This document shows, piece by piece, positions 5,076 to 61,721 of a DNA stretch of 64,000 bases (the first letter of the stretch is position 1; each line of letters starts with the position of its first letter). The stretch lies in the NCBI GenBank assembly GCA_036569045.1, contig DATCRI010000011.1:1-64000 (forward strand), read 5' to 3'. The DNA comes from Chthoniobacterales bacterium (GTDB taxonomy: Bacteria > Verrucomicrobiota > Verrucomicrobiia > Chthoniobacterales > JAATET01). The position numbers and the translations under genes are program-made. Under the pieces are notes generated by a model that did not search any database, was not told the DNA's origin, and worked only from the letters and a program-made list of their open reading frames with translations.

Positions 5076-5786
5076 CTACAGCCGCGCGCGGACTTCGCTG
5101 ACCTTGCGCGTAAAGGGCACCCGTTCCCCGCCTCGCAATAACGCGCAATTCTCCCCGGCTGCGTCCGCGTCGAGCTGAACGACGTGCCGCAGATTCAGGA
5201 TCGCCGATCGGCTCACGCGGAAAAAATCCTCCGGCAGGCTGGCCTCGAGCGACGTCATCGTCTGGCGAATGATGTGATTCTGCGTGGCGGTGTGCAGGAT
5301 CGCGTAGTTTCCCGCCGCCTCGATCCACTCGATCTGCGCAGCCGCGACGACATCCACCCGGCCCTGATTCCGCACCAGAAAGCGATCCCGAACCGCCTCC
5401 GGCTCTTCGGCAGAGTTCTTTCCCCGTCGTTCCGCGACCCGCTCGAGCGCCTTGAGCAGACGATCGCCGGCCACCGGCTTGAGAAGGTAATCGAGGGCGC
5501 AGGCCTCAAAGGCGCGCACCGCATATTCGTCGTAAGCGGTGACAAAAATGATCGTGGGCCGTTTCTCGGCTGGCAGGGCATCGACCACGTCAAACCCGTC
5601 CATTCCCGGCATCTGAATATCGAGGAACACGAGATCCGGAGCGTGCTGGCGGATGTCGGAAATCGCCGAGGTGCCATTTTCACATTCCGCCACGATCTCG
5701 ATCTCGGGCGAGGCCCGCAAAAGCCGCGCCAGCCGCAAGCGCGCGACCTGTTCGTCATCCACCAGGATCGTTCGAATCTTTTTCAC
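5076..5786 (-). CDS. LytTR-family response regulator
   Basis: A 236-residue regulator. The receiver domain (residues 1-125) has the acidic pair VDDEQ, phospho-acceptor Asp56 in LVFLDIQMPGMDG, and the conserved Thr and Lys in FVTAYDEY and LLKPVAG. A LytTR DNA-binding domain occupies about residues 135-236 (WIEAAGNYAILHT, LPEDFFRVSRSAILNLRHV). It overlaps its sensor kinase gene by 4 bp, which makes it the cognate partner. Such pairs usually sense envelope or metabolite signals; the ligand here is unknown. Confidence 0.93.
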   Translation of the reverse strand: MKKIRTILVDDEQVARLRLARLLRASPEIEIVAECENGTSAISDIRQHAPDLVFLDIQMPGMDGFDVVDALPAEKRPTIIFVTAYDEYAVRAFEACALDYLLKPVAGDRLLKALERVAERRGKNSAEEPEAVRDRFLVRNQGRVDVVAAAQIEWIEAAGNYAILHTATQNHIIRQTMTSLEASLPEDFFRVSRSAILNLRHVVQLDADAAGENCALLRGGERVPFTRKVSEVRARL

Positions 5787-6895
5787 GGCGCGGTCCGGTA
5801 GGGAACCTCGAGAATCACCTGCGTGAGCGGTCCATCATACATCTCGAGCACGGCATCGTCGCCATAAAGCTGCTCGAGCCGCGCCCGGGCATTGCCGAGC
5901 CCGATGCCCTCGGTCGCGTCGGGGCGGCTGCGAAAGCCCAGGCCATCGTCCGAAACGATAATGCGCAGTCGCGCACCCTGCCGCCGCGCGGTCACGGTCA
6001 CGCTGCCGCCTTCGGGACGCGGCAGCAGCCCGTGCTGAACGGCATTCTCGACCAGCGGCTGGAGGATGAACGCGGGCACCAGCGCGTTCCGGGCATCGGA
6101 ATCAACGTCCATCGAGTGGCCGATCCGACCATCGAACCGGACGCCGATGATCGCCAGGTAGCGCTCGACATATTCCATCTCCCTCCCCAGCGGCAGCTCG
6201 ACTTCCGAGGACGTCTCGAGGCTGAGTCGCAGCAGGTCGCTCAGCGCGACGAGCATCGCGTCGGCCTTGTCCGGTTGTTCGTGGACGAGCCCGGCGATCG
6301 TGTTGAGCGTATTGAAAAGAAAGTGGGGCTGGAGCTGCGCCTTGAGCGCCTCGAGACGGGCGCGGGTGAGCCCGGCAGCGCGTTCCTCGAGACGGCGCCG
6401 ATAAAGGAGCAGGTGCGCGCTTGCCACGAGCATCAGATAGATCGGCAGCTCGAAGGTGAAATAGCCGAAGAGATTGATCGCCGGCGGGAGCGGTTCCTCC
6501 CCCACCAGAAGCGTCTCCGAAGATCGGAGCGGCGGGGGCTGGTGAAGCTGCAAGGTCTCATTCGACTGGCCGGCTGCCGCTGAAAAGGCCCAGTCGACCC
6601 CTCCCTTCCAGATATGGAGAAACGCCATCGACAGGACGAACACGAGCGCATGCGCCGGCCACACCACGTATTTCCGCGGCCGACCGAGCGGAAATCGCGC
6701 CGAAAATCGAAAGAGGAGCGGCGTCAGGATCGCCCACGAAGCCCAGTCACGCAGCCCATGCCGAATCGCAGTGGGCACATCCCCCCCACGACTGACAATC
6801 TCCGCCCCAAGGATCACGGAAACCGTTCCCCAGGCGGCAAAGGAGATGAGCCAGCCGAGGAGAAGCGTTCGGAAAGGGCTGAGGAACCGAACCAT
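5783..6895 (-). CDS. LytS/YehU-type sensor histidine kinase
   Basis: A membrane sensor kinase with four or more hydrophobic N-terminal segments (FRTLLLGWLISFAAWG, YVVWPAHALVFVLSMAF, LFGYFTFELPIYLMLVASAHLLL). A His_kinase domain follows, with phospho-acceptor His in LKAQLQPHFLFNTLNTI, then an HATPase_c module (LVENAVQHGL, DDGLGF, GIGLGNARARL). This is the architecture that pairs with LytTR regulators. I use the ATG at 6895, just before the first hydrophobic segment. A TTG at 6976 would add 27 residues and overlap the upstream gene by 4 bp. It is translationally coupled to the regulator. Confidence 0.9.
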   Translation of the reverse strand: MVRFLSPFRTLLLGWLISFAAWGTVSVILGAEIVSRGGDVPTAIRHGLRDWASWAILTPLLFRFSARFPLGRPRKYVVWPAHALVFVLSMAFLHIWKGGVDWAFSAAAGQSNETLQLHQPPPLRSSETLLVGEEPLPPAINLFGYFTFELPIYLMLVASAHLLLYRRRLEERAAGLTRARLEALKAQLQPHFLFNTLNTIAGLVHEQPDKADAMLVALSDLLRLSLETSSEVELPLGREMEYVERYLAIIGVRFDGRIGHSMDVDSDARNALVPAFILQPLVENAVQHGLLPRPEGGSVTVTARRQGARLRIIVSDDGLGFRSRPDATEGIGLGNARARLEQLYGDDAVLEMYDGPLTQVILEVPYRTAP

Positions 6896-7353: not shown

Positions 7354-7772
7354 GAAATTTCAATTGTTTGCCACCGCGCAGGCAGGCCCCTCAATTTTTT
7401 TGGGACGAACCCGGTAATTTCTGGGATGAAAGGGATTCGTCGCTTTCCCCAGAAGCGCGGCTCGCCATCCCCACAAAGCTCAAACGGCTCGTATGGAGAT
7501 GAGCGCCTTCGCCGCTCCCCTCCTGGCAATTCTTCCGTTCGAGAGTGGGCCGTTTCCCAATCATTACGGGCAGAAGCACCGTCGTGATCCGGAAGGACAG
7601 CGCTTAATCCAACTTGCTGCAGGCGCAACAGCGGAGCAGCAAAGGACTGCGGATGCCGCAAGGCAGAGGGGAATGGGAAATTTCGAAAAGGAACTTCCCT
7701 AAACCGAACGAACATCACAACACACTAATGACCAGAATGTTGCGAATGGATGTGAAGACCTCCTTCCAAGGT
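7354..7772. other. Intergenic region between divergent transcription units
   Basis: About 420 bp with no open frame of convincing composition. It is more AT-rich than its surroundings. It holds the upstream control DNA of the organosulfur cluster, including the sequence before the sigma-54-like promoter at 7773. The stretch CTAATGACCAGA at 7725-7736 is, on the opposite strand, a 10-of-12 match to TCAAGTCATTGG at 15464-15475 upstream of the sfnG promoter. I see no RNA gene. Confidence 0.5.
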
Positions 7773-7788
7773 TGGCACGAGAGCTGTT
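7773..7788 (+). promoter_or_regulatory. Probable sigma-54 (-24/-12) promoter of the ABC transporter genes
   Basis: TTGGCACGAGAGCTGT matches TGGCACG-N4-TTGC at the whole -24 element and at the TG of the -12 element, with correct spacing; the final C of -12 is T. Transcription would begin near 7799, just before the ATG at 7808. An SfnR-type sigma-54 activator is encoded in the same cluster. Confidence 0.6.
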
Positions 7789-7807
7789 TTAGGAATGGCA
7801 CTCGATC

Positions 7808-8767
7808 ATGAACTCCAAAAATCTCGTCATCCGAAGCGGCGCGGGCGGTCCTGCGACGGCATTGCCGGACAAATGGCTGGAAGACGCGCCAACTTTTCCG
7901 AAGCTGGAAGAGAAGCAAAAAACGAAGAGTTTTTTTGACCGAAAAGACGACTCGATAAGTCGTTTTTTAAAATCGGACTTCCCCACCTTGAAATTGGAGT
8001 CGGTGACGCTGGCGTTCGGAGGCATTACCGCCGTGGAGGATATGGATCTCACCGTCGAGCACGGGGAGATTCGCGCGATCATCGGGCCGAACGGCGCGGG
8101 CAAGAGCTCGCTGCTGAACGTGATCAGCGGGATTTATCGTCCCCAAAGCGGGCGCGTCTGGATCGACGGCTGGCGATTCTCACGCGTGCCGACCCAGCAG
8201 CTCGCGAAGCTCGGCATCGCGCGGACGTTTCAAAATCTGGCCCTCTTCAAGGGGCTGACCGTCCTCGAGAACGTCGAGCTCGGCCGGGCGGCGTCGCGGC
8301 ACGCGAGCTTCGTCGAACAGATCGTGGGCCTCGGCCGCGCCGGACGCGAGCGCCGGGATGCGCGGGTGCGTGCGGAGAAGATCATCGAATCTCTTGGGCT
8401 GGAGGCCGTGCGCGAGCGGTTCGCAGGCACGCTGCCCTACGGTCTGCAAAAGCGGGTCGAACTGGCTCGTGCGCTGGTGGCGCGGCCGAAGGTGCTCCTG
8501 CTCGACGAGCCCATGGCGGGAATGACCGCTACCGAGAAGCAGGAGATGGCGCGCTTCGTGCGGGCGGCGCGCGACGAGTTCGGCACGACGGTGGTGCTCA
8601 TCGAGCACGACATCGCGATCGTGATGGAACTCTCGGATCGCGTGACCGTGCTCGACCACGGGCGCAAGATTGCGGACGGAACGCCGGCAGAGGTTCAGGC
8701 CGACCAGGCTGTGATCGACGCGTATGTCGGCGTCGCTCACGACGAGCCGGAGGAGGCGTATGTTTGA
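7808..8767 (+). CDS. LIV-type ABC transporter ATPase (LivG-like)
   Basis: ATP-binding subunit of a branched-chain-amino-acid-type importer. Walker A is GPNGAGKSS, the signature loop is LPYGLQKRVELA (the LivG variant), Walker B is KVLLLDEPMAGM, and the switch His is in VLIEHDIAIVM. The conserved domain begins only at about residue 61 (LKLESVTLAFGG). The first 60 residues are unusual and include a region coding an inverted repeat. An in-frame TTG at 7988 would give a normal-length LivG. It overlaps the LivH gene by 8 bp and heads a five-gene transporter set followed by organosulfur oxygenase genes, so the cargo is probably a sulfonate or sulfone rather than an amino acid. Confidence 0.9.
   Translation: MNSKNLVIRSGAGGPATALPDKWLEDAPTFPKLEEKQKTKSFFDRKDDSISRFLKSDFPTLKLESVTLAFGGITAVEDMDLTVEHGEIRAIIGPNGAGKSSLLNVISGIYRPQSGRVWIDGWRFSRVPTQQLAKLGIARTFQNLALFKGLTVLENVELGRAASRHASFVEQIVGLGRAGRERRDARVRAEKIIESLGLEAVRERFAGTLPYGLQKRVELARALVARPKVLLLDEPMAGMTATEKQEMARFVRAARDEFGTTVVLIEHDIAIVMELSDRVTVLDHGRKIADGTPAEVQADQAVIDAYVGVAHDEPEEAYV
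7947..7963. promoter_or_regulatory. Inverted repeat ACGACT-N5-AGTCGT, copy 1 (candidate operator)
   Basis: A perfect 6-bp-arm palindrome with spacer CGATA, followed by TTTTTTAAAA. The identical arms with the same 5-bp spacer recur at 19727-19743, just before the sfnR start. Here it lies inside the N-terminal extension of the LivG frame, 24 bp before an in-frame TTG. It could be an operator for a dimeric regulator. The T-run would also allow an attenuator-type hairpin. Confidence 0.45.
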
Positions 8768-33455: not shown

Positions 33456-34538
33456 TCAAGTTCCCGTTGCGGCCTGTGCCGGAGCCTCGTCGAGCGTGAT
33501 GCGGAGCGGCATGGCGATGACTTTGCGCTCGGCGAGCGATTCGTATTCGTCGAGGGCCGGAAGGATGACCATCGCGCCTTTGGCGTAGGCCTCGTGCACG
33601 GCGCGGCTGCTGTGGCCCAGAGCTTCCTGCGCGAACCGCTGCGGATAGCCGCAGGCCTTGGCCCGCTGCGCCCAAGAATGCCGGTAGGAGTGAAGGCTGA
33701 CGCCGGACACGCCCGCGATGCGGCACCGGCGGCTGAACTCGGTCGAACGCGCATTCGCGCCCGCCGTCCGGATCGTCGGGAAGAGCGGTCCGGTTTTTGG
33801 CAGCGTCTCCAAAAGCTGACGCAGCGTCTTGCCGATGCTGAGCCGTGCTGGCTCGCTGTCGGGGCCGAGCTTCTTGCGGCGATAGACGAGCAGCATGTTC
33901 TGCCAGTCGATGCTTTCCGCGGTGATCTCGGCGGCGTCCGACTGCGCGGCTCCGGTCTCGTAGAGGAACTGGTAGTAGGCGCGCTTTTCGGGATTCTTCT
34001 CGCTCGCCATGATGCGCGTGTGCTCGTCGGCGGTGACCGCGCGGCGGCGCTTGCTGACCTTCTTCGGCCAGCTCCGTTTCGTGAGGACCGGCCACGGCAG
34101 CCAGCCGAGATCGACGGCGAGGTTGTGCAGGCGGCGGAGGTAATGCGCGATGGAGTTGCCGTTGGCATGGACGACGGCGAGCAGATCCGCGGCGGTCGTC
34201 TGGACGAGCGGCTTATCGCGAATCGGATCGTAGGCGCGTGAGCACATCGTGCGCGCGCAACGCTCACGGGTGGCATCGATGCCGTGGCGCTCCATCTCGT
34301 GCATGACCTCGCGCCACGTGCGCTTGCTCATGCTCGGATCGTGCGCGGCGAGATAGGCGCGCGCGATGGAGAGATTCAGCGTGGGCTCTCGGTGCGATTC
34401 ATTCTTCGCGTTGACGAGTTTCTGCGCCTCGCGCCGATCCTTCGTGCGCAGGCTGCCCTGCTTGTTGGTTCCGTTCTCCTGCCAGTAATAGACGCCGTTC
34501 TCGCGCTGATACAGGCGGTATCGATCCTTCATTTCCAC
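33456..34538 (-). CDS. int: Tyrosine recombinase/integrase of the element
   Basis: A 360-residue phage-type integrase. The N-terminal arm-binding-like part is YRLYQRENGVYYWQENGTNKQGSLRTKDRREAQKL. A SAM-like domain follows, then the catalytic domain with HSYRHSW (HxxR), LGHSS (third His) and the nucleophile Tyr in AVHEAYAKGA. The first catalytic Arg position reads TGAAQSDAAEIT, with Gln-Ser where most integrases have Arg-x. It lies 179 bp from tRNA-Asn, with arm-type repeats between. It catalyses excision and integration at the 25-bp att core. Confidence 0.88.
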   Translation of the reverse strand: MEMKDRYRLYQRENGVYYWQENGTNKQGSLRTKDRREAQKLVNAKNESHREPTLNLSIARAYLAAHDPSMSKRTWREVMHEMERHGIDATRERCARTMCSRAYDPIRDKPLVQTTAADLLAVVHANGNSIAHYLRRLHNLAVDLGWLPWPVLTKRSWPKKVSKRRRAVTADEHTRIMASEKNPEKRAYYQFLYETGAAQSDAAEITAESIDWQNMLLVYRRKKLGPDSEPARLSIGKTLRQLLETLPKTGPLFPTIRTAGANARSTEFSRRCRIAGVSGVSLHSYRHSWAQRAKACGYPQRFAQEALGHSSRAVHEAYAKGAMVILPALDEYESLAERKVIAMPLRITLDEAPAQAATGT

Positions 34539-56130: not shown

Positions 56131-57333
56131 TCAGGGTTTGAGGTAAACGAGCACCGCGGCGACGAGGAAGATATTCGCGAGGGCGATTTCGAAGAAGTAG
56201 ATCCAGCCGAGGCGCATGAGCTGGTCGTAGCGGAAGCGCGGGACGGTCCAGCGCACCCAGATAAAGAAGAAGATGAAGGCGCAGACCTTCGCGAAGAAGA
56301 CGTTGATGTTCACGAAGCCCCAGAAGGCGCCGGGCACCCAGCTCCACACGTGATTCTCCAGGCCGAAGAGCCACGTCGAGGTGCCGTCGGGGATCCACGG
56401 CAGGCTCCAGCCACCGAAGAAGAGCGTCACGATCACGCCCGAGCCGGCGATCATGGCCGCGTATTCCCCGAGGAAGAACAGCGCGAAGCCCATGGAGGAA
56501 TATTCTGTGTGGTAACCACCGACGAGCTCCTGCTCGGCCTCGGGAAGGTCGAACGGCGTGCGGTTCGTCTCCGCAAACATCGAGACGAGGAAGATGATGA
56601 ACGAAATGCCCATCAGCGGGATGAGCGCGAGACGCCACCACTCGAAGTGAACACCGCCGACGACCGAGATCGGGAAGATGAGCCAGCCGTTTTTGATCTG
56701 CCAGTCGACGATCTGCGAGAGGTTGATGGTGCCGCAGATGAGGAAGACGGGCACGACCGAGAGGCCGAGCGCGAGTTCGTAGGAGATCATCTGCGAGCTG
56801 GAGCGGATGCCGCCGAGGAAGGGGTATTTCGAGTTCGAGGCCCAGCCGGCGAGCACGATGCCGTAAACGCCGAGCGACGAGACGGCGAAAACGTAGAGGA
56901 CGCCGACGTCGATGTTCGCGATCACCATCTGGACGGGCTTGCCGTCCGGCCCGGTGAGGAACGAGCTGCCGAAGGGGATGACCGCCAGCACGAGCAGCGG
57001 CGGGATCATCGTGAGCTTCGGCGCGATGTAGTAGTAGAACTTGTTGACCGAGTTCGGGATGAAGTTCTCCTTCAGCAGGAGTTTGATGGGGTCGGCGACC
57101 ATCTGCCCGAAGCCCCAGAGGTGGGGATCCTTCTTGAAGCCGAGGAGCGAGGCCGGCGCGCCCACACGATTTGGCCCGAGACGATCCTGAATGAAGGCGC
57201 TGACCTTGCGCTCGGCGAATACGGAAAGCGAGACAAGCGGAAGGATGGCGCCGAAGAGGACGAAAAGCGTCTTCAGGATCGAAGTCCAGACGAGGAAGAC
57301 GATTGGTTGCTGGAGAAAGTTGAGGGAGTCCAT
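56131..57333 (-). CDS. nuoH: NADH-quinone oxidoreductase subunit H
   Basis: A 400-residue membrane subunit at the quinone site. ERKVSAFIQDRLGPNRVGAP, ADPIKLLLKENFIPNS, FAETNRTPFDLPEAEQELVGGYHTEYSSMGFALFFLGEYA and a C-terminal IWVRWTVPRFRYDQLMRLGW are the canonical motifs. It is the first gene of the H-I-J-K-L-M-N block. Its upstream neighbours are unrelated genes, whereas nuoG would be expected directly upstream. Confidence 0.96.
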   Translation of the reverse strand: MDSLNFLQQPIVFLVWTSILKTLFVLFGAILPLVSLSVFAERKVSAFIQDRLGPNRVGAPASLLGFKKDPHLWGFGQMVADPIKLLLKENFIPNSVNKFYYYIAPKLTMIPPLLVLAVIPFGSSFLTGPDGKPVQMVIANIDVGVLYVFAVSSLGVYGIVLAGWASNSKYPFLGGIRSSSQMISYELALGLSVVPVFLICGTINLSQIVDWQIKNGWLIFPISVVGGVHFEWWRLALIPLMGISFIIFLVSMFAETNRTPFDLPEAEQELVGGYHTEYSSMGFALFFLGEYAAMIAGSGVIVTLFFGGWSLPWIPDGTSTWLFGLENHVWSWVPGAFWGFVNINVFFAKVCAFIFFFIWVRWTVPRFRYDQLMRLGWIYFFEIALANIFLVAAVLVYLKP

Positions 57334-57477
57334 TCGCCGCGGCCCTTCGATAGCGGTTTTCCCGCAGGAGTGTCGAGGCGCAAACGCGCAAAATCACACA
57401 AACCTCGCAAATTCGGGCGCATCCCCAACGAGGCGGCTTGACGCACGGTCGCACGCCTTCGCAGATTGCCGGCCTCC

Positions 57478-58539
57478 ATGCGTCTCCTTGTTGTCCTCTC
57501 GCTGCTCGCGGCATCGTTCCTCTCCACGGCCTCGGCGGAAACCGTCCAAATCGTCACCCGAAACGTGGAACCCTTCTCCTTCGAGCAGGATGGCAAGCGC
57601 ACCGGCTTCGCGATGGAACTCTGGGAAAACCTCGCCAGGGAGCTGAACGTGGACGCGACGCTCACCCTCGTCGACACGCCCAAACAAATGGTCGAGGCCG
57701 TTGCCGCAAAGACGGCGGACGTCGGCGTCGGCGCCCTCAGCATCACCGCCGAGCGCGAGAAGATCATCGATTTCTCGCAGCCCTTCTTCGCCGCCGGCCA
57801 GCAGATCGTCGTGCCACGCACCGGGGACAGCGGCTCGATCTGGTCCGTCGTCAGCACGGTGCTGAACTGGCGCTTCGTCGGCTCCTTCGCGCTGCTGATT
57901 TTCGTGATGCTCGTGATCTCGCACCTCGTCTGGATGTTCGAGCACAAGGTCAACGAAGACATGTGGCCGAAGCCCTACGTCGCGGGCATGTGGGAATCCT
58001 TCTGGTGGTCGATCAGCACGCTCCTCGTCGGCGGCGCGGACAACAAGGGCCCGATCGGCGTCGGCGGGCGCCTCGTGGCGATCGCGTGGATGCTGCTGAG
58101 CATCGTGCTCGTCTCCCTGCTCACGGCGAGCTTCGCCAGCACGCTCACGGTGAACACCCTCCAGGGGGACATCAACTCACCGAAGGACCTCGAGGGCAAA
58201 TCCGTGGCCACGGTCGCCGGCAGCGCCTCGGTGACGATCCTCAACAACCTGCGAGCCCGCGTGCAGGGCTTCCCCAACGTGCGAGCGGCCCTCGACGCCC
58301 TGAAGGCCGGCAAGGTGAAGGCCGTGGTCTACGACGCGCCCATCCTCAAATACGCCCTCAAGGAGGAAGCCTACTCCGGCCTCATGCCCATCGCCGGCGA
58401 GTTCGACATCAGCAACTACGGCCTCGCCCTGCAGCAGGACAGCCCCCTGCGTGAACGCGTGAATCAGGCCCTGCTCACCCTCAGCGAAAACGGCACCACC
58501 GAGAAGCTCCGCGAGAAGTATTTCGGCACGACGGAGTAG
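57478..58539 (+). CDS. Ionotropic-glutamate-receptor-like ligand-gated channel (GluR0-type)
   Basis: A 353-residue protein with a signal peptide (MRLLVVLSLLAASFLSTASAE) and an SBP_bac_3 binding lobe split by a pore module. S1: VTRNVEPFSFEQDGKRTGFAMELWENLA and ALSITAEREKIIDFSQPFF. Then TM1 (FALLIFVMLVISHLVWMFEH), a re-entrant loop WESFWWSISTLLVGGADNKGP, and TM2 (LVAIAWMLLSIVLVSLLTASFAS). S2: GKSVATVAGSASVTIL to the end. The K+ filter TVGYGD of GluR0 is absent, so ion selectivity is unclear. Start is the ATG at 57478. It is divergent from nuoH. Confidence 0.85.
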   Translation: MRLLVVLSLLAASFLSTASAETVQIVTRNVEPFSFEQDGKRTGFAMELWENLARELNVDATLTLVDTPKQMVEAVAAKTADVGVGALSITAEREKIIDFSQPFFAAGQQIVVPRTGDSGSIWSVVSTVLNWRFVGSFALLIFVMLVISHLVWMFEHKVNEDMWPKPYVAGMWESFWWSISTLLVGGADNKGPIGVGGRLVAIAWMLLSIVLVSLLTASFASTLTVNTLQGDINSPKDLEGKSVATVAGSASVTILNNLRARVQGFPNVRAALDALKAGKVKAVVYDAPILKYALKEEAYSGLMPIAGEFDISNYGLALQQDSPLRERVNQALLTLSENGTTEKLREKYFGTTE

Positions 58540-58643
58540 GCCACCGGCGTCGCCGGCTCCTCCGGCCGCCGCATGAGTTCGCGCACGACAGCCCGGGCTT
58601 GAAAAGCCAACTCTCGGCAGATCAGCCCCTCTGTAAGACGAGG

Positions 58644-58706
58644 CTGGCCGATGATCGCCCAGCCCTGGCGAACGATTGACCAGTTCTGGTGAATGACCGA
58701 CCAGAG
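58644..58706. repeat. Three 21-bp tandem repeats
   Basis: Three adjacent 21-bp units, each of the form CTGG-N11-CCAG-N2 (58644, 58665, 58686), with diverged interiors. Each unit is itself an imperfect inverted repeat. They lie between the channel gene and the first attC, in a stretch of about 220 bp with no supported gene. Confidence 0.6.
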
Positions 58707-58758
58707 GCAAGGTCTCGTCAACTTTGCCCTCCTACAGGGGAGCGCGAGATGCTCAGAG

Positions 58759-58817
58759 AGCTAACGACACCAAGCTGAGCGACAGCCGGAGCCGTTCACT
58801 GCAGCGCATGATTAGGC
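58759..58817 (-). other. attC recombination site 1 (59 bp)
   Basis: Read on the minus strand it begins GCCTAAT, continues CATGCGCTGCAG...CTCAGCTTGGTGTC, and ends GTTAGCT, fitting attC (R'' RYYYAAC-like ... R' GTTRRRY-like) with paired L boxes (GCTGCAG / CTCAGC). It directly follows the stop of the lipoprotein cassette gene, as attC sites do. Confidence 0.8.
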
Positions 58818-58818
58818 C

Positions 58819-59403
58819 TCATTTGGGTGCGGACAGAAAGCGTGTCCGTAATGCTGCTGAATCGCTATCATAAACGATCCCGATAGCCACAACATACTTT
58901 GCAGCGGTCGCGAGTGTCGCAGAAGTCGGATAAAGTTGTGGCGCTGACGAAGAGGCCAATAGCCCTAGAATGGAAACACCCTGATACGATAGATGTTCAT
59001 CCATCGGCACTGGACGCCAACCAGCGGACGAAAACTGCTGCCAATGGGGAAAGGCGTCGCTCAAGTCTCGGGAATTGGAGCCGTCCACAATAGCCGCTCG
59101 TCGGAACTGATTCGACTCGAACTGCCACAGAAGCTGAATATGTCCGCGGAAGGGTTGCGGTTGATGGGTTCCGACACTCATCATCGCGGGACCTTTTATC
59201 TCGGCCACTTGCTGGCCGTCGGCGAAAAGTAACGTGACTGGATAGTAGGCAGAAGCAGAATCCGGCAATGTAAAGCTCGCGTCCAGCGTGCGAATGCCCA
59301 TGAAAGTGCGCAACTCGTGGTCAATTGTGCGGGGCGGTTCTGGCAAATCGGGCTTCTCGCAGCCGCTTAACAACGCGAGAGTTATAAAGAAGAGTGAGCG
59401 CAT
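58819..59403 (-). CDS. Cassette-encoded lipoprotein of unknown function
   Basis: A 194-residue protein with a lipoprotein signal (MRSLFFITLALLSGCEKPD; lipobox LSGC). The mature part is beta-rich (DASFTLPDSASAYYPVTLLFADGQQVAEIKGPAMMSVGTHQPQPFRGHIQLLWQFESNQF); no family recognised. Start is the ATG at 59403, right after attC site 2; longer frames run into attC. Its stop touches attC site 1. It occupies one integron cassette. Confidence 0.75.
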   Translation of the reverse strand: MRSLFFITLALLSGCEKPDLPEPPRTIDHELRTFMGIRTLDASFTLPDSASAYYPVTLLFADGQQVAEIKGPAMMSVGTHQPQPFRGHIQLLWQFESNQFRRAAIVDGSNSRDLSDAFPHWQQFSSAGWRPVPMDEHLSYQGVSILGLLASSSAPQLYPTSATLATAAKYVVAIGIVYDSDSAALRTRFLSAPK

Positions 59404-59415
59404 GGCGTGTTTGAG

Positions 59416-59508
59416 GCCTAACGACCCAAGCTCAGCGACCCGGCCCACGGGACGCCATGATTGCAACCGCGACGCTCAAGCCGGGTTCGCTGCAGCGCAT
59501 GGTTAGGC
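59416..59508 (-). other. attC recombination site 2 (93 bp)
   Basis: On the minus strand GCCTAAC at one end and GTTAGGC at the other are exact complements (R'' and R'). L boxes GCGCTGCAGCG and GTCGCTGAGCTT lie inside, with an imperfect central stem around CCCGG. The upstream cassette gene's TAA stop is inside the GCCTAAC box, a typical cassette layout. Confidence 0.85.
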
Positions 59509-59802
59509 ATCACTGCCTGCCTCCATCAGGACTTGATCCATCTGCTCAACCAAACGCCACACACGTTCGTTTACTTGGAACTGCGTCAAACCGCTCTGCG
59601 CTTTTGGGTAATGCGGTGAGTCACCCAAGAAGCCTCGCGGCCCACAAAGTATTCGCAGGGCTGCAAGCACATCACGGTCGCATGGATTACGACGCACTCG
59701 TTCGCGATAACTCAGGAACTGCTCGATGCGGGTCTCATCCTCGTCGCACTGCCGGAGGAGCACAATAATCTCATCCAGAGTCTCTATGAGGCGCGTCTCC
59801 AT
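59503..59802 (-). CDS. Cassette-encoded small protein (99 aa)
   Basis: A 99-residue helical protein, starting METRLIETLDEIIVLLRQCDEDETRIEQFLSYRERV, with CDRDVLAALRILCGPRGFLGD in the middle. It resembles small cassette-borne immunity-like or DUF6966-type proteins, but that is uncertain. Its start lies 4 bp downstream of a GTTAGGC site (59806-59812) and its stop falls in attC site 2, so it fills one cassette. Function unknown. Confidence 0.7.
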   Translation of the reverse strand: METRLIETLDEIIVLLRQCDEDETRIEQFLSYRERVRRNPCDRDVLAALRILCGPRGFLGDSPHYPKAQSGLTQFQVNERVWRLVEQMDQVLMEAGSDA

Positions 59803-59805
59803 GAT

Positions 59806-59812
59806 GCCTAAC
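59806..59812 (-). other. Upstream cassette core site GTTAGGC
   Basis: The 7-bp R' core (GTTAGGC on the minus strand), 4 bp before the first cassette start codon. It marks the 5' boundary of the array, as attI or a truncated attC would. No integrase gene lies beside it. Confidence 0.65.
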
Positions 59813-59820
59813 CGGTGATT

Positions 59821-59850
59821 ATACGACTGAAGGTGTTTGGCCAGTCGTAT
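59821..59850. repeat. 8-bp inverted repeat ATACGACT-N14-AGTCGTAT
   Basis: Perfect arms separated by 14 bp, 8 bp beyond the cassette core site. The arm contains ACGACT, the same hexamer as in the two organosulfur-cluster repeats, but with a different spacer. The remaining intergenic DNA up to 60065 holds no gene I can support. Confidence 0.55.
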
Positions 59851-60065
59851 ATTGAGGGTTGCCGGCGGGGAGTGTCCTTCGGCGATGGCGCTCTTCGAGG
59901 CCGCGAGAATACTCTGTGAGGCTGCGACGCGGCGGCCTTTCGCTCTGGACGGAGAATGCCCGGGTGGGGCGAAGCCCAGTCGTCTCTGACGGCGGGTGAT
60001 TTGGCTCCGTTCGATCCGACATTCCCGAAACCGCGAGCAGTCATTACGGCCGGAGGTTGCTCCCT

Positions 60066-61721
60066 TTAGCGCCGGGCGATCGCTTCGCCGAGGTTCAGCT
60101 CCACGCCGAGGTCGCCGATGGCGGCCATCGACAGGCCGGCGAGCTCCGGGACCTCGGCGGCCATGGCCTTGAAGACTTCCTCGATGGAGTAGACGCCATT
60201 CTGGCCGCCGACGGCCACGGTGAGGTCACGGAGGATTTCCCAGTCGTCGCGGGCCTTGCCGGGGGCGGGAATGGCGCGGTTCAGCCGCTGGATGCGGCCG
60301 GCGAGGTTGATCATTGTTCCGCGTTTCTCGGCCGGGGCGCTCGCCGGGAGCAGGACGGTGGCGTGCGGGGTCGTGTTGTTCGGCAGGATGTCGAGGACGA
60401 CGAGGGTGTCGAGCTTCGCGAGGTCGCCGGCGGCGATGCCGCATTTGGTGGCGTCTTCGCCGAGCACAAGCAGGCCGCGGATGGAGCCGCTGGCCACGCC
60501 GGCGCCGATATCCTGCAGCCGGCCGGGGAGGTGCATGCCCAGGAGCTTCGCGCCGGTGGTGTTCGGATTGCCGTCGTTGGCGATGAGGTAGCCGTCGCCT
60601 TCCTGCGGGCGGGGCAGGATGTCGATCTGGTCGATGCCAAGGGCCTGGGCGAGCCGCCGGGCGAGGAAGAGCTCCTCGTTCGTCATGCGGGCGGAGGCGA
60701 TCATCGCGAGGCGGGAGGGCTCGAGGGCCTTCAGCCGCGAGGCGGCGGTGGCGATGGCCTCGCTCCACGCGACGGGGGAGTTCTTCACGAGCGGCGTCTT
60801 GAGGCGGTCCGCATCGTGGAGGTAATGGAAATTCAGCCGGTGGCTGTCGGGCATCCAGCAGGAGTTCACGAAGTCGTTCTCGCGCGGGGTGATGCGGTGG
60901 ACGATGCCTTCGCGCGAGGAGATGACGATGTTCGTGCCGGTGCCGCAGTTCGTGTCGATGGTCTTGGTCTCCTTGAGGAACCAGACGCGCATCTTGAAGC
61001 GGAAGTCCTTGCTGGTGAGGGCGCCGACGGGGCAGATGTCGACGGTGTTGAGCGAGTAGTTGTTGTCGAGGCGCTTGCCGGGATAGACGGTGAGCGTGGT
61101 GTGGCTGCCGCGGTTCACGAAGCCGAGGACGTCGTCGTGCGCAACCTCCTGCATGAAGCGGATGCAACGCGAGCACATGATGCAGCGCTCGTCGTCGAGG
61201 ACGATGCGCTCGCCGATGTCGACGCGCTTGGGCTTCTTGACCTTCTCCTCGATGAAGCGGGACTCGCCCTTGCCGTATTCGACGGAAAATTCCTGGAGGC
61301 GGCACTCGCCGGCCTGGTCGCAGATGGGGCAGTCGAGCGGGTGATTGATGAGGAGGAACTCCATCACGCCCTTGCGGCAGTCCTCGACGAGCTCGCCGGT
61401 GGTGCGCACGCCCATGCCCTCGCTGATCTCGGTGGCGCAGGAGATGGCCGGGCGCGGGCTCCAATTCAGGATCGGGTGGCCGTCCTCGCCGAGCTCGGGC
61501 TTGCGATCCGCGCCCATCTTCGGCATGCCGAGCTGGACAAGGCACATGCGGCAGTTGCCCGGCGAGCTGAGCTTCGGGTGGTAGCAGTAGTGCGGGACGT
61601 ATTGGCCGGCCTTCATGCAGGCCTCGATGAGCCGGGTGCCCTTGGGGAACTGGCGCCATTCGCCGTCGACCTGGACGTTGAGGAGGGGGACTTCCGTTTG
61701 CGGGGGAGCGGTCGTCGTCAT
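60066..61721 (-). CDS. nuoG: NADH-quinone oxidoreductase subunit G
   Basis: A 551-residue Fe-S subunit. N-terminal 2Fe-2S Cys set: YCYHPKLSSPGNCRMC with a later SCAT. Then the HxxxC-type 4Fe-4S ligand region HPLDCPICDQAGECRLQE, then CIMCSRCIRF with DICPVGAL. A shortened molybdopterin-like C-terminal domain follows (MIASARMTNEELFLARRLAQALG, LLVLGEDATKCG). It is shorter than the E. coli subunit (about 900 aa), as in many bacteria. Separated from nuoH by the channel gene and cassette array. Confidence 0.95.
   Translation of the reverse strand: MTTTAPPQTEVPLLNVQVDGEWRQFPKGTRLIEACMKAGQYVPHYCYHPKLSSPGNCRMCLVQLGMPKMGADRKPELGEDGHPILNWSPRPAISCATEISEGMGVRTTGELVEDCRKGVMEFLLINHPLDCPICDQAGECRLQEFSVEYGKGESRFIEEKVKKPKRVDIGERIVLDDERCIMCSRCIRFMQEVAHDDVLGFVNRGSHTTLTVYPGKRLDNNYSLNTVDICPVGALTSKDFRFKMRVWFLKETKTIDTNCGTGTNIVISSREGIVHRITPRENDFVNSCWMPDSHRLNFHYLHDADRLKTPLVKNSPVAWSEAIATAASRLKALEPSRLAMIASARMTNEELFLARRLAQALGIDQIDILPRPQEGDGYLIANDGNPNTTGAKLLGMHLPGRLQDIGAGVASGSIRGLLVLGEDATKCGIAAGDLAKLDTLVVLDILPNNTTPHATVLLPASAPAEKRGTMINLAGRIQRLNRAIPAPGKARDDWEILRDLTVAVGGQNGVYSIEEVFKAMAAEVPELAGLSMAAIGDLGVELNLGEAIARR

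Follow-up and report, generated by a model that had tools for sequence, protein, structure and literature searches.

How do two small genes, each followed by a putative integron attC site, come to lie inside the nuo (complex I) gene cluster of a Chthoniobacterales bacterium, and do they form a cassette array in the absence of an integron? Within the window, i.e., the whole stretch of 64,000 nucleotides that was analysed, the locus comprises the following features, listed in the direction in which the array reads.

60066–61721, minus strand: nuoG, upstream of the array and on its strand (NuoG domains; 85–88% identical in congeners)
59806–59812, minus strand: core recombination site GTTAGGC, upstream boundary of the array (direct sequence reading)
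59503–59802, minus strand: ORF1 of cassette 1, 99 aa (ORF call)
59416–59508, minus strand: attC1, 93 nt, R'' GCCTAAC and R' GTTAGGC (105.4 bits with covariance model R1)
58819–59403, minus strand: ORF2 of cassette 2, 194 aa (ORF call)
58759–58817, minus strand: attC2, 59 nt, R'' GCCTAAT and R' GTTAGCT, the downstream boundary (43.0 bits with model R1)
57466–58539, plus strand: gene for a bacterial ionotropic-glutamate-receptor-like, ligand-gated channel (SBP_bac_3, E 9e-27; Lig_chan, E 8.8e-17)
56131–57333, minus strand: nuoH (NADHdh, E 5.8e-113)

The array has the layout of gene cassettes, with one ORF and one attC per unit packed tightly between core sites. ORF1 starts 4 nt past the core and ends with a TAA stop inside the attC1 R'' box, and ORF2 ends 1 nt before the attC2 R'' box. 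A preliminary description of this DNA had proposed two attC sites with R and L boxes, each behind a small gene of the same strand, and a third core site at the upstream edge; all these elements are present where it placed them, the core GTTAGGC reading from 59812 to 59806. The four-base spacer of this core is complementary to that of the attC1 R'' box GCCTAAC at all four positions, as expected of a cassette's own 5' end, and the spacers of attC1 R' (GTTAGGC) and attC2 R'' (GCCTAAT) likewise pair at four of four bases. Taken alone, such matches within the window array carry little information, the GTTAGGC-type spacer being the commonest. A 9-bp inverted repeat (ATACGACTG...CAGTCGTAT) that lacks a T-run adjoins the upstream core site at 59818–59850.

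Are the two sites recognizable as attC by structure? Rfam returned two tRNAs and nothing else over the window, and we hence built an attC model from sites of other genomes. An initial loose regular-expression scan gave mostly noise, and we turned to paired-end and covariance searches instead. The resulting model R1 rests on 30 sites of the same appearance from other genomes and viral contigs, with the window sites left out. Their paired structure consists of R''/R' and L''/L' stems; the bases at columns 16 and 23 are extrahelical and stay unpaired. Standard pairs filled 93.9% of pair cells in these 30 sites, compared with 84.0% in shuffled alignments and 21–40% when the pairing was slid, and double changes were found in 51 cells versus 15.7 in shuffles. 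Over the 64-kb window, R1 gave exactly two strong matches, attC1 (E 2e-27) and attC2 (E 1e-9), far above the background, in which the third-ranked match reached only 13.2 bits (E 0.28). The covariance check that the preliminary description had suggested thus came out clearly in its favour.

attC2 is short and degenerate, with R'' GCCTAAT, R' GTTAGCT and several more substitutions, and scored 20.6 bits (E 0.001) with a further model, R2. At the end of an array, the bases past the G|TT cleavage point come from the downstream flank, which accounts for the deviating R' box. attC2 is furthermore similar to a 58-nt site at another locus (L150). It is a true though degenerate member of the attC class. 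Predicted folding of the single-stranded DNA provided weak evidence, with z values of −2.15 for the 93-nt and +0.47 for the 59-nt site.

The window array does not stand alone in its genome (3.43 Mb in 91 contigs, 98.18% complete). At least 15 further attC-like sites (E 5e-4 or better) occur on six other contigs, in clusters L070, L071, L072, L073, L074 and L273 (contigs C7, C19, C48, C51, C18 and C60, respectively); they were found with a second model built from sites of this genome and its congeners, which they therefore match by construction. These sites are of a longer type of about 126 nt, unlike the 93 and 59 nt of the window sites, and the same type lies beside the integron integrase gene intI in the congeners G001 and G002. 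Of 20 pairs of adjacent sites in the arrays of this genome and its congeners, 12 showed a match between the R' spacer of one site and the R'' spacer of the following one, compared with a mean of 2.45 in shuffles. Spacers passing in this way between neighbouring sites are the footprint of integron recombination. Several terminal R' boxes in the other arrays of this genome lack the GTT, which suggests decay. On contig C51 (cluster L073), two transposase-like ORFs (7747–8727 and 5154–5843), by eye IS1595-like and IS30-like, lie within or next to the attC array.

The congener arrays of G001 and G002 share with the window array the L-box core, the positions of the extrahelical bases and the passing of spacers between cassettes; they differ in site length and in their position beside intI. 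They also bear on whether the window sites are attC at all. A dispersed palindromic repeat of the REP or MITE type might flank two small genes by chance, and the near-identity of the 93-nt sequence in many genomes would fit such an element. Against it stand the conserved R and L boxes, whose extrahelical bases keep to fixed positions, the compensatory changes in the inner stem, the single site behind each ORF and the handing on of spacers to the next site; the arrays in which related sites of this lineage lie beside intI in G001 and G002 contradict it. We consider a chance repeat barely credible.

The 93-nt type belongs to a near-identical family in about 100 contigs. Going by the labels of the metagenome-assembled genomes, these contigs come from Verrucomicrobia, Planctomycetota, Nitrospira, Acidobacteria, Cyanobacteria and Proteobacteria. 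The core of this attC type was also seen in fifteen IMG/VR contigs (L201–L215), some with two or three sites. As the 93-nt type differs from the lineage's own type of about 126 nt, the cassettes were probably imported from a shared environmental pool.

Neither ORF1 nor ORF2 matched a family in Pfam, NCBIfam, PADLOC or PHROG, in line with the earlier statement that both proteins are of unknown function, and products of this kind are usual for cassettes from the environment. Searches for plasmid matches of the cassette genes found none, and no viral-contig relative of cassette 1 was confirmed. Among 387 genomes of the phylum, each protein had one weak homologue (37% and 28% identity). The structure model of ORF1 (pLDDT 80) predicts an all-helical protein with four helices, and fold searches with it gave no significant match; weak matches of ORF1 to the insulin B chain were judged to be due to chance. 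The ORF2 model was unusable (pLDDT 37). The N-terminus of ORF2 reads as a lipobox-like LLSGC, and its product is hence a predicted lipoprotein.

Where, then, is the integrase? Against the integron-integrase profile TIGR02249, nothing in the organism's own 98.18%-complete assembly exceeded the curated cut-off. A single tyrosine recombinase was found in the window (33579–34037), and its match to this profile reached an E value of only 0.05. Of the two best tyrosine recombinases of the genome, one is XerD-like and exceeds the XerD cut-off, and the other is XerC-like and falls just short of the XerC cut-off. The preliminary description had called the array integrase-free and proposed a genome-wide search; its statement stands for the assembly, and for the assembly only. 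Among the 57 genomes searched, 20 carry a true integron integrase, including all three congeners, in which intI adjoins a conserved permease-like gene at one conserved locus. This permease-like neighbour had no match in the organism's own assembly either, so that the integrase may sit in an unassembled stretch. Its absence may thus reflect an assembly gap, or a loss together with its locus.

With intI missing from the locus and the assembly, the array is no complete integron. Its two covariance-supported attC sites lie about 600 nt apart on the minus strand, within the limit of less than 4 kb that applies to clusters of attC sites lacking an integron integrase (CALINs), and no integron integrase is found nearby. 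We are therefore highly confident that the array is a two-cassette CALIN. CALINs as described with IntegronFinder 2.0 (PMC9024848) likewise have two or more attC sites at distances below 4 kb, with each site behind an ORF of the same strand, and lack a nearby intI. They contain almost six attC sites on average, compared with two here.

The surroundings of the array were compared among relatives. The preliminary description had located the array between nuoG and nuoH; it does lie inside the nuo cluster, but its downstream neighbour is the antisense channel gene, and nuoH follows only beyond it. The congener G003 has the same order of nuoG, channel gene and nuoH, with a gap of 75 nt between nuoG and the channel gene versus 1526 nt in the window. 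An antisense channel gene inside the nuo cluster was thus also seen in G003 and not in G002. In 19 other relatives, G002 included, nuoH follows nuoG after 18–175 nt (within 118 nt in G002). Neither cassette gene is present at any of the 29 nuoG loci of relatives examined. The two outcomes named beforehand as speaking against an integron-type array, low covariance scores and genes fixed beside nuo in all relatives, thus both failed to occur, and that interpretation is supported.

The base composition points in the same direction. GC3 is 0.59 for ORF1 and 0.56 for ORF2, compared with values of 0.90–0.93 in the three neighbouring genes (nuoG, nuoH and the channel gene). Together with their absence from this locus in relatives, this marks both cassette genes as foreign arrivals and not fixed nuo neighbours. 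Foreign composition could also be taken as a sign that an array fragment of another organism was joined into the nuo contig by faulty assembly or binning, the more so in a genome of 91 contigs and with a 93-nt attC family that many organisms share and that could mislead assembly. However, foreign composition is normal among cassettes, both ends of the array run into native nuo-side DNA on one contig of 152 kb, and the foreign part ends exactly at recombination cores, which misassembly would not favour. An artefact of this kind is very unlikely.

How a CALIN arose at this position is less certain. CALINs can form in three ways, by off-target insertion, by loss of intI or by rearrangement (PMC8618304). 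Among the possible origins we favour, with moderate confidence, that the cassettes were inserted off target at an attG-like site containing GTT, because the integron platform of the genus is found at another locus and the window array has a different attC type. In our reading of the CALIN, each unit consists of a single foreign ORF that lacks a promoter, with its attC behind it; integron-type recombination at G|TT linked the units head to tail, and they occupy the intergenic space that separates nuoG from the antisense channel gene. The integron integrase responsible for the off-target insertion would be encoded at another place in the genome or would have been lost afterwards. With its flanks joined, the empty insertion site would read ...CACCGG|TTAGCTCTC....

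The flanks complicate this picture. Between the cassettes and the native genes lie 219 nt and 253 nt (about 470 nt) of host-like GC content, and their comparison with the intergenic DNA of G003 gave no alignment above shuffles and no counterpart in its gap. For this reason, we only presume a clean entry of the cassettes at an empty site. That these flanks are missing from the G003 gap means that something else entered or left, as would be the case if a complete integron had once been located here and had lost intI and attI by deletion, leaving two cassettes and platform sequence. This remnant would also be a CALIN, only of other origin, and the terminal R' boxes without GTT in the other arrays of the genome are as expected after integrase loss. 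Yet the genus-typical intI is found at a different conserved locus in the three congeners, the attC type of the window is unlike that of the genus arrays, and a search of the array flanks for attI-like similarity to the congener DNA around intI found nothing useful. We thus regard the deletion of an integron at this site as unlikely.

Off-target insertion, the favoured origin, has a described precedent. The attG route was documented by Loot et al. 2024, as cited in PMC12901181 and PMC12444791; as far as these citing papers present it, it shares with the window array chromosomal cassettes outside an integron and boundaries at GTT cores. It differs in that here the integrase was not found in the assembly and use of an attG site is what we infer. 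CALINs at fixed loci in Xanthomonas, e.g., by secD or secF (PMC12444791), are likewise small two-cassette CALINs in the neighbourhood of core genes, in a lineage whose relatives carry intI elsewhere. In contrast, the window array was seen in a single genome, whose other arrays have a different attC type.

Could the cassettes be expressed or still move? A scan of the region 58400–60300 turned up neither a promoter-like site on the minus strand nor a terminator-like site. As the cassettes are moreover co-directional with nuoG, their read-through transcription from the nuo operon is possible. The locus might even be a natural attG-type case in which cassettes of a cross-phylum pool lie co-directionally behind nuoG and the nuo promoter replaces the integron promoter, a combined reading that we offer tentatively and hold to be unlikely. 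Since an integrase is undetectable, the cassettes are probably static now; in principle, they could be excised in trans.

Earlier publications describe integrons from Verrucomicrobiota as well as CALINs at core loci (PMC8618304, PMC12444791), and fragmented metagenome-assembled genomes commonly contain CALINs (PMC9668308, PMC9024848). What is new here is only this member and its position, the kind being well known; we found no published description of a CALIN with nuoG on one side and an antisense channel gene on the other. The locus leaves the known picture unchanged and provides a clear example of integron cassettes that lie inside a conserved core operon and not in an integron, with the nearly empty locus of a congener as comparison. 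Furthermore, a 93-nt attC type found across phyla can coexist with the lineage-specific type of about 126 nt in one genome, and this coexistence marks the cassettes as imports. The array is thus useful for studying how cassettes depart from the integron platform.
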